IMG/VR virus record: IMGVR_UViG_3300042502_000594
Span: 1 to 64,000 of that record
Strand: one strand, 5' to 3'
From: a virus
Length of the DNA: 64,000 bases
Positions 28,541-46,929 of this stretch are shown piece after piece. Made by a program: the position numbers and the translations under genes. The notes beneath the pieces are model-generated. The model saw only the letters and a list, made by a program, of their open reading frames with translations, had not been told where the DNA came from and did no database searches. Position 1 is the first letter of the stretch. Every line of letters begins with the position of its first letter.

Positions 28541-28571
28541 CAAATATACTCAAAAACAACACAGTGTCAAA
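28541..28571 (-). promoter_or_regulatory. Late-operon promoter (minus strand)
   Basis: On the minus strand a TTTG -33 box (28571-28568) and a TATATTTG -7 box (28548-28541) are separated by 19 bases, matching the Bacteroidota consensus. It would start the transcript that covers the whole minus-strand structural block. It faces the early promoter at 28579-28608. Confidence 0.7.
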
Positions 28572-28578
28572 TTATTGC

Positions 28579-28608
28579 TTGTAAATAGTACTAAACAACG
28601 TATATTTG
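28579..28608 (+). promoter_or_regulatory. Early promoter (plus strand)
   Basis: TTG (28579-28581), a 19-base spacer and TATATTTG (28601-28608) precede the 28613 gene; the start codon is five bases after the -7 box. Together with the minus-strand promoter it forms a compact divergent control region. Confidence 0.7.
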
Positions 28609-28612
28609 CAAT

Positions 28613-28804
28613 ATGTTTCTCCTCTCAATTATCTTAACTATTGTATCTATCTATCTGATGATTAAGAACTCTATTTACGGATGTGGCAAGCGGTGTTACA
28701 AGACCCGGAAAGAGGCTAAGGATCATTGTGATTACGACCAACAGGTTTATATGTGCTGGGACTGTGAAATGTGGCACGTAAAAAATAATGAAGAAAATAC
28801 TTGA
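28613..28804 (+). CDS. Small membrane-anchored Cys-rich protein, 63 aa
   Basis: It starts MFLLSIILTIVSIYLMIK, a single N-terminal membrane segment, followed by a basic Cys-rich domain with CGKRC, an HC and a C-terminal YMCWDCEMWHV. The CxxC/H pattern could bind zinc. It is the first early gene, directly behind a divergent promoter, so it would be made at once after infection. Possible roles such as host takeover or membrane anchoring are guesses. Its stop overlaps the -33 box of the next promoter. Confidence 0.65.
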   Translation: MFLLSIILTIVSIYLMIKNSIYGCGKRCYKTRKEAKDHCDYDQQVYMCWDCEMWHVKNNEENT

Positions 28805-28831
28805 CAACCTCGCGTGGTTGTTTTATGTTTG
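28801..28831 (+). promoter_or_regulatory. Promoter for replication leader RNA
   Basis: TTGACA at 28801 and TATGTTTG at 28824-28831, with a 20-base spacer after TTG, fit the Bacteroidota promoter form. The predicted start lies near 28836, so the transcript begins with the structured leader. Confidence 0.65.
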
Positions 28832-28838
28832 CAAAATA

Positions 28839-28944
28839 TATCCTGCCTCCCGTTTGTTAAAGAGCAACAGCAAACGGGGGTTAGGATAGGTAAATTATCT
28901 TTTACCTAATTAGGCCCGTAAAGTTGCTCTTACGGGCTTTTTTT
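28839..28944 (+). ncRNA. Structured leader / attenuator RNA with complementary loops
   Basis: The first element is an 18-position stem (28839-28856 with 28871-28888; one mismatch, two G-U pairs) with a 14-base loop. A 7-bp hairpin (AGGTAAA/TTTACCT, 28888-28907) comes next, then the terminator. Loop bases 28862-28868 (GAGCAAC) are complementary to terminator loop bases 28923-28929 (GTTGCTC), extendable to nine bases by opening two terminator pairs. A kissing-loop or antiterminator switch is inferred. Any transcript reaching the replication genes from this promoter must read through it. Confidence 0.65.
28914..28944 (+). terminator. Intrinsic terminator directly before replication operon
   Basis: An 8-bp perfect stem GCCCGTAA/TTACGGGC with an 8-base loop is followed by seven T. 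The next start codon is only four bases downstream, so this is an attenuator-type position rather than an end-of-operon terminator. Confidence 0.85.
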
Positions 28945-28948
28945 ATTT

Positions 28949-29638
28949 ATGAATACAGGACAAATAGTAAAAGGGAAACGCACGCATGACTTTGCGATTA
29001 TCCCAAATGAAATCTCGCAGTCAAAAGAACTGACCATGGAAGAAAAGGGCATGATGTGTTTCCTTCTTTCGCTCCCAGAGAACTGGGTTCTTTACAAAAA
29101 GAATCTTTACAATCAAATGCCAGATGGTAAACACGCAGTGGATAGGGTGTTTAAGTCCCTGCAAGAGAAGGGGTATATCCTAAGCTGCCGTCAAATAGAC
29201 GTAAGTACAGGCAGAATGGAGGGGTGGAACCACATTGTTTACGACGAGCCTCAACTTGACCGAGATGCGGATTTACCGACATCCGGTTTTCCCGTTGTCG
29301 GTGAAACCCGTAAATCGGAAAACATCGATATATATAAAGAAACAAACATCTACAAAGAAACAATAACATATAAATACGCATTTGAGGATTTTTGGCTTGC
29401 ATACGACAAGAAGGTGGACAAGAAACAAACCCTTGCTGTTTGGAATAAACTATCTGATGAGGACCGAACCCTAGCAGTTGAAGGCATGGGAAACCACAAG
29501 AGTGGTCGCGAGCGCAAATACTGGAAGGACCCGGTGCGCTATCTTCGTGATAAAAGGTGGGAGGACGAGACAACAACAACGAACGTAAAACAAACAAACT
29601 ATAGCTATGACCCAAATGATGCAAGGAATAAATGGTAA
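28949..29638 (+). CDS. Winged-helix replication initiator / helicase-loader-type protein, 229 aa
   Basis: The N-terminal ~100 residues form a winged-helix-like domain typical of phage replication proteins (TMEEKGMMCFLLSLPENWVL; VDRVFKSLQEKGYILSC). A variable linker follows, then a C-terminal module FWLAYDKKVDKKQTLAVWNK ... YWKDPVRYLRDKRWED, often found at the end of helicase-loader or DnaD-like proteins. It begins four bases after the attenuator and overlaps the primase-helicase gene. It likely recognises the origin or loads the helicase; no origin site was proven. Confidence 0.7.
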   Translation: MNTGQIVKGKRTHDFAIIPNEISQSKELTMEEKGMMCFLLSLPENWVLYKKNLYNQMPDGKHAVDRVFKSLQEKGYILSCRQIDVSTGRMEGWNHIVYDEPQLDRDADLPTSGFPVVGETRKSENIDIYKETNIYKETITYKYAFEDFWLAYDKKVDKKQTLAVWNKLSDEDRTLAVEGMGNHKSGRERKYWKDPVRYLRDKRWEDETTTTNVKQTNYSYDPNDARNKW

Positions 29639-31559
29639 GGTATCCATCTACAAAGACTTCAATGACCTGCAAGGACACACAATTAGTGTACTGGGCGCAC
29701 TTGAACGAATTAGGACTGGAAAATCAAAGGCACTTGTTGAGAAGGCGAGGGAAGCCAAGACCAAGAAAGAGGCGGACGAGTTAAAAAAGAAACTCCCAGC
29801 AGTTTGTTTCAGTGGAACTTTTTCCAAAAGGAAGGATTCTGAGCTGATTGAACACTCCGGATACATCGTGTTGGACTTCGATAACGTGGCGGATATGGCC
29901 CAAAAACGAAGCGAATTGTGTTCAGTGAGGTATATTACCGCTGTTTGGGAATCACCCTCAGGAAAGGGCTTAAAAGCGCTCGTCCAAATTGAGTGGAAAA
30001 CAAAGCATAAGGAACACTTTGATGCTTTGATGGAGGAGATGCCCGACATTGACAAGACTGGTCGAAATGTTTCTCGCCTATGCTTTGAGTCGTATGATCC
30101 TCAAGTTTGGTATAACCCAAACGCTGAGGTATACAGCAAGTTGCCTGTAAAGAAAGAAGACAGGAGGTTGCCCCAACAGACAACTACAGAGACTATTAAC
30201 GACGACGACAAGATATTCCAAAACCTTCTAACGTGGATGACGTCCAAGGGTGATGCGTTCCGTGAAGGAGAAAGGAACCACTTTGTGTTCAAACTCGCAG
30301 CAAGCTGTTGCAGATTTGGGATGATGGAAGAGACGTGCTATAGCCTGATGATGATGCACGTTACCCCAGACTCTAGCTTTAGTCAGAAGGAGTGCAGGCA
30401 AGCCATTCGCAGCGCGTATAGGGCCAACATGAATCAGTGGAACACCGCTGAGTTTACTAAAGACCAACTGGTTACAAAGAGTAACCACAAGGAAGTAGAG
30501 ATCGTAATCACCGCAGAAGATGCGGAGAATATCGCCGCAGAAGATGTCATTTATGCGGAGGAAGTATTTGAACAGGCGTCTGAGATTTATCACAAGGGCT
30601 ATCAGGCGGCCATGCCGCTTGGCGTTCCGCTTCTAGACAAACACTTCAAAAGAGTCAAGGGAGAATTAACAATTGTTTCCGGAATTGGAAACTACGGTAA
30701 GTCTTCTTTCATGAAGTGGGAGATGATATTCCGCATGGTCAGGTTCGGGGAGAAGGTTGCCATATTCACTCCTGAGGAATTACCTGCTGAACAGTTTTAT
30801 CATGACCTAGTTGAAATTTACTTTGGTAAGGACTGCACTCCGAATAATTACCACAGGCCGAGTTACGATTCGTACAAGAAGGTGTACGAAATGATTGGTC
30901 AACACATCTTCATGGTGTACCCCAAGAACGTAAGCCCGACTCCTGACTACGTGAAAGAAGTCTTCCTAAGCATGATCATCAAGCACGGAATAGACCGCGT
31001 TGTAATCGACCCGTTCAATCAGATGGCAAACGACTACACCAAGGGAGGTGGTCGAAGCGACAAGTACCTTGAGACGTTCCTTTCTGACTGCACAAGGTTT
31101 GCAAGGAAGAACAACGTGTACTTCGACATCGTTGTCCACCCGCACAAGATGAGGAAGGGAGACGACGGAAACTACCCATGCCCGGAGGTGTTCGACCTTG
31201 CAGATGGAGCGATGTGGAACAACAAGGCGGACAACATCATCATCTACCACAGGCCTGTTGCTCAGACAGCTCCCGAAAGTCCGCTCTGTGAGTTTCACTC
31301 CAAGAAGATCCGCAGACAGAAGATCGTCGGGATAAAGGGTTTCTTTGACTTTGAACTTGTAAGGTCTACTCGCAGGTTTATGTTTGATGGAGTAGATTAT
31401 TTGCAGAGAGCCATAGACGGTCAGTACGTTCAGTCTAACATCGAAGAGCCAAAGCCCTCTGTAATCAAGCCAAACAGAAACTGGACTGATTCTAAAGAAG
31501 CAAAGGAATGGAATGAGGAGCCAGGACACCCGAACGGGTATAGGGAGGATTGGGAATGA
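29607..31559 (+). CDS. Primase-helicase: VirE_N/primase-like N-terminus and DnaB-type ATPase, 650 aa
   Basis: Residues ~25-190 match the VirE N-terminal/BT4734-like family (SGYIVLDFDN; SPSGKGLKALVQI), which is related to archaeo-eukaryotic primases. Residues ~200-280 read as a PriCT helical domain (GERNHFVFKLAASCCRFGM). The C-terminal half is a RecA-fold helicase with Walker A-like SGIGNYGKSSFMKW (~355) and later VVIDPFNQMAND as Walker B-like. Overlap with the upstream gene (32 bases) suggests coupling. It probably opens and primes phage DNA. The fused architecture is common in Bacteroidota mobile elements. No separate DNA polymerase gene is seen. Confidence 0.8.
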   Translation: MTQMMQGINGKVSIYKDFNDLQGHTISVLGALERIRTGKSKALVEKAREAKTKKEADELKKKLPAVCFSGTFSKRKDSELIEHSGYIVLDFDNVADMAQKRSELCSVRYITAVWESPSGKGLKALVQIEWKTKHKEHFDALMEEMPDIDKTGRNVSRLCFESYDPQVWYNPNAEVYSKLPVKKEDRRLPQQTTTETINDDDKIFQNLLTWMTSKGDAFREGERNHFVFKLAASCCRFGMMEETCYSLMMMHVTPDSSFSQKECRQAIRSAYRANMNQWNTAEFTKDQLVTKSNHKEVEIVITAEDAENIAAEDVIYAEEVFEQASEIYHKGYQAAMPLGVPLLDKHFKRVKGELTIVSGIGNYGKSSFMKWEMIFRMVRFGEKVAIFTPEELPAEQFYHDLVEIYFGKDCTPNNYHRPSYDSYKKVYEMIGQHIFMVYPKNVSPTPDYVKEVFLSMIIKHGIDRVVIDPFNQMANDYTKGGGRSDKYLETFLSDCTRFARKNNVYFDIVVHPHKMRKGDDGNYPCPEVFDLADGAMWNNKADNIIIYHRPVAQTAPESPLCEFHSKKIRRQKIVGIKGFFDFELVRSTRRFMFDGVDYLQRAIDGQYVQSNIEEPKPSVIKPNRNWTDSKEAKEWNEEPGHPNGYREDWE

Positions 31560-46149: not shown

Positions 46150-46580
46150 AACACAACGCAGTAATCACACCACAGGGGGCATTGCGAATCTACAATCGCC
46201 CCCTCTTCGAAGAGGACGTCAGAGCGATGTCCCGTGAGACGGACTTGGCTGTGACCATCGAAGTCAAACTGAAGAAGCGGTTCCGGTCGGACGTGCAGAA
46301 CGCATACTATTGGGGCGTGGTAGTGGCCATGATATCGCAGAGACTACGCGAGCTTGGACACGACGTCGACCGAGACCTCACGCATGAGTTCCTCAAGGGA
46401 AGGTTTCTCTATACTGAGTTCACAGACCCGACATCCGGTGAAGTCATGAAGATTCCACGCAAGACGTCGGAGCTTGCAACGGAAGAGTTTATGGAATACG
46501 TCGAACACGTCAAGCAGTTTGCTGCTGAGACGTTGGACATTTATATTCCCGACCCAAATGAGCAACTTGAGATAGGTTAA
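46146..46580 (+). CDS. ninB: NinB-like recombination protein, 144 aa
   Basis: The start at ATG 46146 is chosen because of the ATGA overlap. SDVQNAYYWGVVVAMISQRL, then HEFLKGRFLYTEF and a helical end match the general pattern of lambda NinB (Orf) family proteins, which load recombinases onto SSB-coated DNA. Length (~145) fits. Co-occurrence with NinG and a RecB-like nuclease supports a recombination role. It is the last gene of the 44.5-46.6 kb transcript. Confidence 0.7.
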   Translation: MKHNAVITPQGALRIYNRPLFEEDVRAMSRETDLAVTIEVKLKKRFRSDVQNAYYWGVVVAMISQRLRELGHDVDRDLTHEFLKGRFLYTEFTDPTSGEVMKIPRKTSELATEEFMEYVEHVKQFAAETLDIYIPDPNEQLEIG

Positions 46581-46780
46581 ACCTTGGACTCATTCAAAAG
46601 AAAAGACAGAGAAAAGAAACAAGTCAAGAAGAAACCTAAAGAGAAGAAAAGAAAAAGCCTCCCCCCGTGAAAAACAAACTACCCCGCCCCACAAAGGGGC
46701 AGCTACCCGATCCAACATACTCGCGTATGAAGTTTGCCTCTTGCACCGACAGGGCTGATTCGGATAGGTGGGAAACGGGT

Positions 46781-46820
46781 AAAAAAAAAGCCCTCGTCTG
46801 GTACGTCCGAGGGCAATTTT
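46781..46820 (+). terminator. Intrinsic terminator after NinB-like gene
   Basis: A-run, GCCCTCG/CGAGGGC 7-bp stem (46790-46796 with 46808-46814), 11-base loop, then AATTTT. The loop contains TCTGGTAC. Confidence 0.75.
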
Positions 46821-46824
46821 GGCA

Positions 46825-46879
46825 TGAGAATTAGATTTCTCAATTCCCACATTGCACTGGTACCAGACACTGCAATGTG
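46825..46879 (+). ncRNA. Tandem hairpins with loop complementary to terminator loop
   Basis: TGAGAA/TTCTCA (46825-46842) and a 9-bp perfect CACATTGCA/TGCAATGTG hairpin (46848-46856 and 46871-46879). The latter's loop contains CTGGTACCAG, a palindrome, and GTACCAGA (46860-46867), exactly complementary to TCTGGTAC in the terminator loop. A kissing or dimerising RNA is inferred. Confidence 0.5.
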
Positions 46880-46929
46880 AGAACGCAACAAAAGTATGGC
46901 TACAAAAATGTAAAAGTCAAAAAAAATAA

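Follow-up and report, generated by a model that had tools for sequence, protein, structure and literature searches.

Covarying complementary loops in a leader RNA before the replication operon of an environmental phage

The replication operon of the phage described here is headed by what is, judging by its sequence, a structured leader RNA of ~110 nt (element 1), in which the loop of a long stem-loop and the loop of an intrinsic terminator are complementary to each other. A contact between these loops at the RNA level, maintained through compensatory changes in at least five sequence types, is well supported. Our preferred reading, held with a confidence slightly short of an even chance, is that of a self-recognising attenuator: the terminated leader would pair with leaders of its own type and would restrain the replication operon. 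The source record (IMGVR_UViG_3300042502_000594) is a virus contig of 65,484 bases, and the window, i.e., the whole stretch of DNA analysed, corresponds to its first 64,000 bases (1-64,000). Element 1 and the genes behind it consist of the following parts:

28801-28831, plus strand: promoter-like TTG-N20-TATGTTTG (sequence; -33/-7 pattern; kept in most homologues)
28840-28887, plus strand: stem-loop I, 6 bp, a mismatch and 12 bp (fold, alignment)
28862-28868, plus strand: recognition sequence of loop I, GAGCAAC, type A (pairs with 28923-28929; compensatory change among homologues)
28888-28907, plus strand: small spacer hairpin, HP2 (predicted fold)
28912-28944, plus strand: intrinsic terminator hairpin and seven T (sequence, fold, alignment)
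28923-28929, plus strand: recognition sequence of the terminator loop, GTTGCTC (32-leader alignment)
28949-29638, plus strand: replication initiator gene, the first behind the terminator (phrog_270, 8.3e-18)
29607-31559, plus strand: primase-helicase gene (PF08800, phrog_18375)

The layout that a preliminary description had proposed for positions 28801-28948 (promoter, hairpins, seven T and an ATG four bases on) is confirmed by sequence and fold, and the family matches listed above bear out the initiator and the primase-helicase that it had placed downstream. The TTG (28801-28803) is followed by 20 bases and then by TATGTTTG (28824-28831). Stem I is indeed long and contains one mismatch, but the fold gives it 19 positions (28840-28858 with 28869-28887) instead of the 18 claimed; its loop is AAAGAGCAAC (28859-28868). 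Many homologues are also predicted to form a hairpin of variable sequence at the position of HP2. The terminator stem carries the loop AGTTGCTC (28922-28929), its seven T occupy 28938-28944, and the initiator ATG lies at 28949, four bases past the T run. The minimum free energy of the leader is -46 kcal/mol versus a mean of -24 for shuffled sequences (z = -7.1), and none of 200 shuffles was equally stable. As had been claimed, GAGCAAC (28862-28868) and GTTGCTC (28923-28929) complement each other exactly, and the pairing can be extended to nine bases, the last two of them inside the terminator stem.

The promoter pattern of the Bacteroidota consists of a -33 and a -7 box (TTTG/TAnnTTTG), and the -7 box of Flavobacterium reads TAHHTTTG, a G at -9 being very rare (PMC6847099). 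The -7 box of element 1, TATGTTTG (28824-28831), has this atypical G, which is nearly absent from the promoters of Flavobacterium johnsoniae; the element-1 promoter is, then, plausible, though not an ideal one. Despite that rarity, most close homologues keep the G. Between the two boxes lies a near-palindrome of 18 bp, ACAACCTCGCGTGGTTGT (28804-28821), present as a single copy in the window, both arms of which change together in some homologues; it is possibly an operator, or else a weak terminator of an upstream ORF. This ORF (28613-28804) encodes 63 aa, is rich in Cys and His, has no family match and possesses its own consensus promoter, ending at 28608; its TGA stop falls within the TTGACA of the leader promoter.

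For the comparison of homologues, leaders were taken from the regions upstream of the initiator relatives encoded at 58 IMG/VR loci. The homologue sets include near copies and most contigs are fragments; the covariation alignment holds 32 distinct leaders. Covariation of the two loops was the check named beforehand, and it was passed decisively: the loop-loop helix (28862-28868 with 28923-28929) is 100% paired in 32 of the 32 aligned leaders, and from type A (GAGCAAC/GTTGCTC, n = 18) to type B (GAACCAC/GTGGTTC, n = 14) both partners are replaced in two of its seven pairs, so that chance does not explain the match. Three other types were found: (i) type C (GTAAGGC/GCCTTAC), in L051-L056; (ii) type D (GAGTCAC/GTGACTC), in L524, from a scan based on the helicase alignment; and (iii) type E, in L526 and L527 from that scan, where loop I contains TCTCTAC and the terminator loop, of eight bases, is A-GTAGAGA. 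The helicase of L526 and L527 is only 41% identical, and their leader, at the same position before the replication operon, has no evident shared sequence, yet it follows the plan of element 1: a stem of 5 bp, a mismatch and 10 bp closed by loop I, then a small hairpin and the terminator. In L526, a 49-aa ORF comes first in the operon and the initiator second. The helicase relatives L522, L523 and L525 have no such leader within the stretch searched.

Two-sided changes also occur in stem I and in the terminator stem. When a type A leader (L049) is set against a type B leader (L050), stem I and most of HP2 are shared, whereas loop I and the whole terminator hairpin differ together; the homologues included no mixed leader combining a loop of one type with a loop of the other. 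A search of viral contigs by the stem only, with the loop left free, likewise returned complementary loops in all true element-1 homologues, which belonged to types A and B only.

The preliminary description had offered either loop-loop kissing or an antiterminator, and had raised the idea that the switch might sense the replication state or a protein such as SSB. Kissing agrees with the covariation of the loops; the nine-base antiterminator is not supported, its extension not being conserved, as complementarity beyond the seven loop bases is lost in many homologues (for instance, L012 ACGAACCAC and L002 ATCGAACCAC). The seven bases that are conserved fall within the loops on both sides, an indication that the hairpins kiss while intact. 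A classical cis attenuator, in which the nine-base loop pairing or some other helix would serve as an antiterminator responding to a protein or a metabolite, could draw on the terminator abutting the ATG, on the ability of AAGAGCAAC to pair with GTTGCTCTT, and on the predicted capacity of some homologues to extend HP2 at the expense of the lower part of stem I. Nevertheless, it is very unlikely, given that pairing beyond seven bases is not conserved, that the nine-base duplex reaches -11.5 kcal/mol versus -14.1 kcal/mol for the terminator hairpin, and that neither a ligand nor a protein candidate was found.

A scan for terminators whose loop complements the loop of an upstream hairpin picked up one further site on the minus strand of the window (46884-46781), between the plus-strand NinB gene and the next plus-strand gene. 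This element 2 has the same design:

46889-46920, minus strand: promoter-like TTGAC..TACTTTTG (sequence)
46843-46884, minus strand: stem-loop I, with loop TCTGGTAC at 46867-46860 (scan, fold, alignment)
46825-46842, minus strand: spacer hairpin (fold, alignment)
46781-46814, minus strand: terminator with nine T, whose loop holds GTACCAGA at 46804-46797 (scan, fold, alignment)

The scan was run on six phage records with same-loop and reversed-loop controls. It returned these elements and one spurious match; the controls gave 10 matches, the sole one with this architecture being element 2 of the window, whose loop is palindromic. Both elements are found once each in five of the six near-full-length records, the other (G005) having only the first; in G013, the first element stands at both contig ends. 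Relatives of element 2 show about ten self-complementary loop pairs, a count that depends on how near variants are split, among them TCTGGTAG/CTACCAGA, TCTGGCTGG/CCAGCCAGA, TCTGACGG/CCGTCAGA, TTGGAGAG/CTCTCCAA and TGTAGAGAG/CTCTCTACA. Two-sided changes affect seven of the eight kissing pairs, and the observed covariation was matched by none of 500 shuffles. When only the stem was searched for and the loop left free, 15 of 15 distinct element-2 sequences had complementary loops, one of them via a G-U pair.

A gene directly follows the T run of element 2 in some relatives, and none does in the window and several others. Element 2 is retained even where it has no gene behind it, which rules out cis attenuation as its sole role; the existence of element 2, missed by the preliminary description, suggests more than a cis switch. 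As to what stands behind it, a protein of 239 aa, predicted to contain two winged-helix regions and weakly matching the phrog_270 replication initiation protein, starts at the end of the T run in L370 and L382, and an ORF of 82-84 aa (MYxGLKSVSPV...) comes directly after the terminator in L367, L369, L416 and L421; the one member searched gave no family match. In the window, the minus strand behind element 2 (46560-46780) has no open gene in phase and includes a stretch, ATCCGAATCAGCCCTGTCGG, that is conserved among relatives. An 86-aa ORF across element 2 was dismissed as probably not coding, the length of the terminator loop varying between relatives.

Both elements bear on the idea that the inverted repeats work as DNA, in the form of a replication origin or a recombination site. 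Element 1 does adjoin the replication genes and sits between divergent operons, but in the 32-leader alignment the G-C pairs of its stems have often become G-U through a change in one partner only, it is flanked by a promoter at one end and by a T run at the other, and element 2 is far from replication genes; a role at the DNA level is highly improbable.

A more serious contender, though still rather unlikely, is a contact made purely in cis: the loops would kiss within one RNA, the compact fold would tune the terminator or protect the RNA, and the types would drift by compensatory change and recombination with no meaning in trans. This predicts the observed covariation equally well, since pairing in cis and pairing in trans would leave an identical trace and are inseparable from sequence. 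By length arithmetic, kissing within one molecule is reachable in element 2 and in L526 and hard in element 1 of the window, where either HP2 would have to open or the complex to bend; with HP2 folded, a bend of ~115 degrees or more is needed, a figure that assumes ideal helices and excludes nothing. The distribution of types, too, counts against a purely cis contact. On a tree of the helicase gene (48 rows, three loop labels), the loop labels are unclustered (15 changes versus 17.7 for shuffled labels), close sisters carry different loop types, and such frequent exchange of A and B would be unexpected from slow, neutral double changes.

Pairing within types A, B, C, D and E is predicted at -9.0, -9.0, -9.1, -9.3 and -7.9 kcal/mol, respectively, and pairing between types at +2.4 to -3.4 kcal/mol; for A against B, the prediction is -0.5 to -2.8 kcal/mol, which would make these two types orthogonal. 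The element-2 types are partly cross-reactive by predicted energy and less strictly orthogonal than those of element 1. The equal duplex energies of types A-D were considered as a sign of tuned affinity and rejected as such: random 7-mers with four G/C give -9.2 +/- 0.5 kcal/mol, so that the near-equal values show a constant composition and not a tuned affinity. Overall, the loop types of element 1 would seem to behave like incompatibility types. A trans target elsewhere in the phage genome, one that would change with the loop type, was looked for as well and not found: in the six genomes, no site besides the two loops varies with the loop type.

In another scheme, the terminated RNA would itself be the product, a trans-acting small RNA or scaffold that joins its own copies, and read-through into the genes would not be regulated by the loops. 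The lack of a downstream gene behind element 2 in the window and in several relatives would suit it, and there is a precedent in the phi29 prohead RNA (pRNA), which, like the leader, has two complementary loops in one phage RNA and multimerises through them, the joining of copies being a phi29 feature (PMC7357161). Unlike the leader, the phi29 pRNA serves in the packaging motor, and its fold has no intrinsic terminator. The pRNA covariance model (RF00044) had no match in the six records and likewise none in the control genomes, so that the positive control failed too; the leader was not matched at E<=1. Against this scheme, every homologue whose start is present has element 1 immediately ahead of the replication operon, the distant L526 included, and the only covarying genome sites of the loops are each other. 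A small RNA or scaffold of this kind is consequently unlikely.

Under the self-recognising attenuator that we prefer, (i) most transcripts would stop at the terminator, yielding a short RNA with both loops; (ii) this RNA would recognise same-type leaders, and most likely do so both in trans and in cis; (iii) such pairing would set how often RNA polymerase reads through into the initiator and helicase genes; (iv) expression of the operon would drop as leader copies build up, a negative feedback; and (v) the loop types would act as incompatibility types, so that a resident phage would restrain a newcomer of the same type and not one of another type. Homotypic pairing in trans is favoured because the types resemble incompatibility types and because element 2 is kept without a following gene. 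As in attenuators of the intrinsic-terminator kind, a terminator lies between the promoter and the first ATG; since it abuts that ATG, any transcript from the element-1 promoter must pass it for the initiator and the helicase to be made. Element 1 would thus be an attenuator at least by position, and presumably a regulating one. In Bacteroidota, structure near the start codon lowers translation too (PMC6847099). Among the points against the preferred model are the following: (i) the loop types of element 1 are mainly two, whereas more might be expected under strong diversifying selection; (ii) no integrase, ParA or HTH_3 repressor match was found in six records, so that P4-like lysogenic immunity lacks a known setting here; and (iii) the element-2 types are predicted to cross-react in part.

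Known systems offer partial parallels. The CI RNA of satellite phage P4 is a short RNA from a replication-operon leader that complements the same leader and causes early termination; it is released from the primary transcript by processing, and its pairing partners are seqA and seqC, one upstream of it and one downstream (PMC4825925). The leader is similarly complementary to sites within itself (loop I and terminator loop, in 32 of 32 leaders). It differs in that loop I has the intrinsic terminator's own loop as its partner, in that five of six records have two such RNAs per genome, and in that no lysogeny genes were found. Neither a tyrosine integrase, nor a ParA-type ATPase, nor an HTH_3 repressor is present in the six near-full records, other lysogeny genes still being possible; no temperate element with an immunity function was thus recognised in them, and membership of the P4/C4 type is not claimed for lack of temperate genes. 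The C4 RNA of P1/P7 is also an antisense RNA from a phage leader, in which few base changes separate immunity types; it is processed from the ant leader, and its gene context and structure differ from those of element 1.

In the I-complex plasmids, a few loop changes in RNAI and stem-loop I can define compatible types, such as IncK1 and IncK2 (PMC10724649). Element 1 resembles I-complex RNAI and other rep leader attenuators in the loop-loop kissing within the leader of a replication initiator; unlike plasmid RNAI, an opposite-strand transcript, it has both loops on one RNA. On the minus strand, no TTG-N17-23-TAHHTTTG occurs within the leader (the nearest one, at 28541, lies outside it), and this lack of an opposing promoter excludes the leader from the counter-transcribed plasmid RNAs. 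Rfam 15 gave no match above the gathering threshold in the window. The trpB motif (RF04312), which also has a long stem, a linker and a terminator, scored 36.1 bits over the full model versus a gathering score of 59; its identity with the leader was rejected because E climbs to 0.22 once the search is enlarged and the homologues besides L001 have no match, the resemblance being one of layout only.

It is conceivable, though we regard it as doubtful, that these elements, as self-kissing terminator RNAs, make up a new class of regulatory RNA in phages: the terminator loop would be the recognition site, for its own type only, each phage could carry two orthogonal RNAs, and RNA-based incompatibility or copy-sensing would be under diversifying selection in apparently lytic phages. 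If true, environmental, apparently lytic phages would possess an RNA system of self/non-self recognition at their replication switch, element 1 having at least five loop types and element 2 about ten, and incompatibility of the plasmid style would reach lytic phages that co-infect a cell. The trans model aside, there is still a covariation-supported RNA family absent from Rfam. No described precedent was found in the open literature, a scope (that of open libraries) which does not prove novelty.

Among annotated phage records, no DNA relative of this virus was found, and the phages Panino, elemo, JQ, sniff, FL-1 and MW202828 have no such element in the regions scanned. In bacterial genomes, the initiator search had no match and the stem-pattern search gave chance matches only. 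The nearest relatives by terminase and helicase, though distant, are phages of Flavobacterium, Cellulophaga, Maribacter and Tenacibaculum. No linkage between the loop type and the N-terminal module of the initiator was seen by inspection. This N-terminal, DNA-binding part is swapped among relatives (the window, L030, L052 and L154), with at least four modules; the C-terminal part is constant across the swaps, and the leader RNA is kept in all of them.
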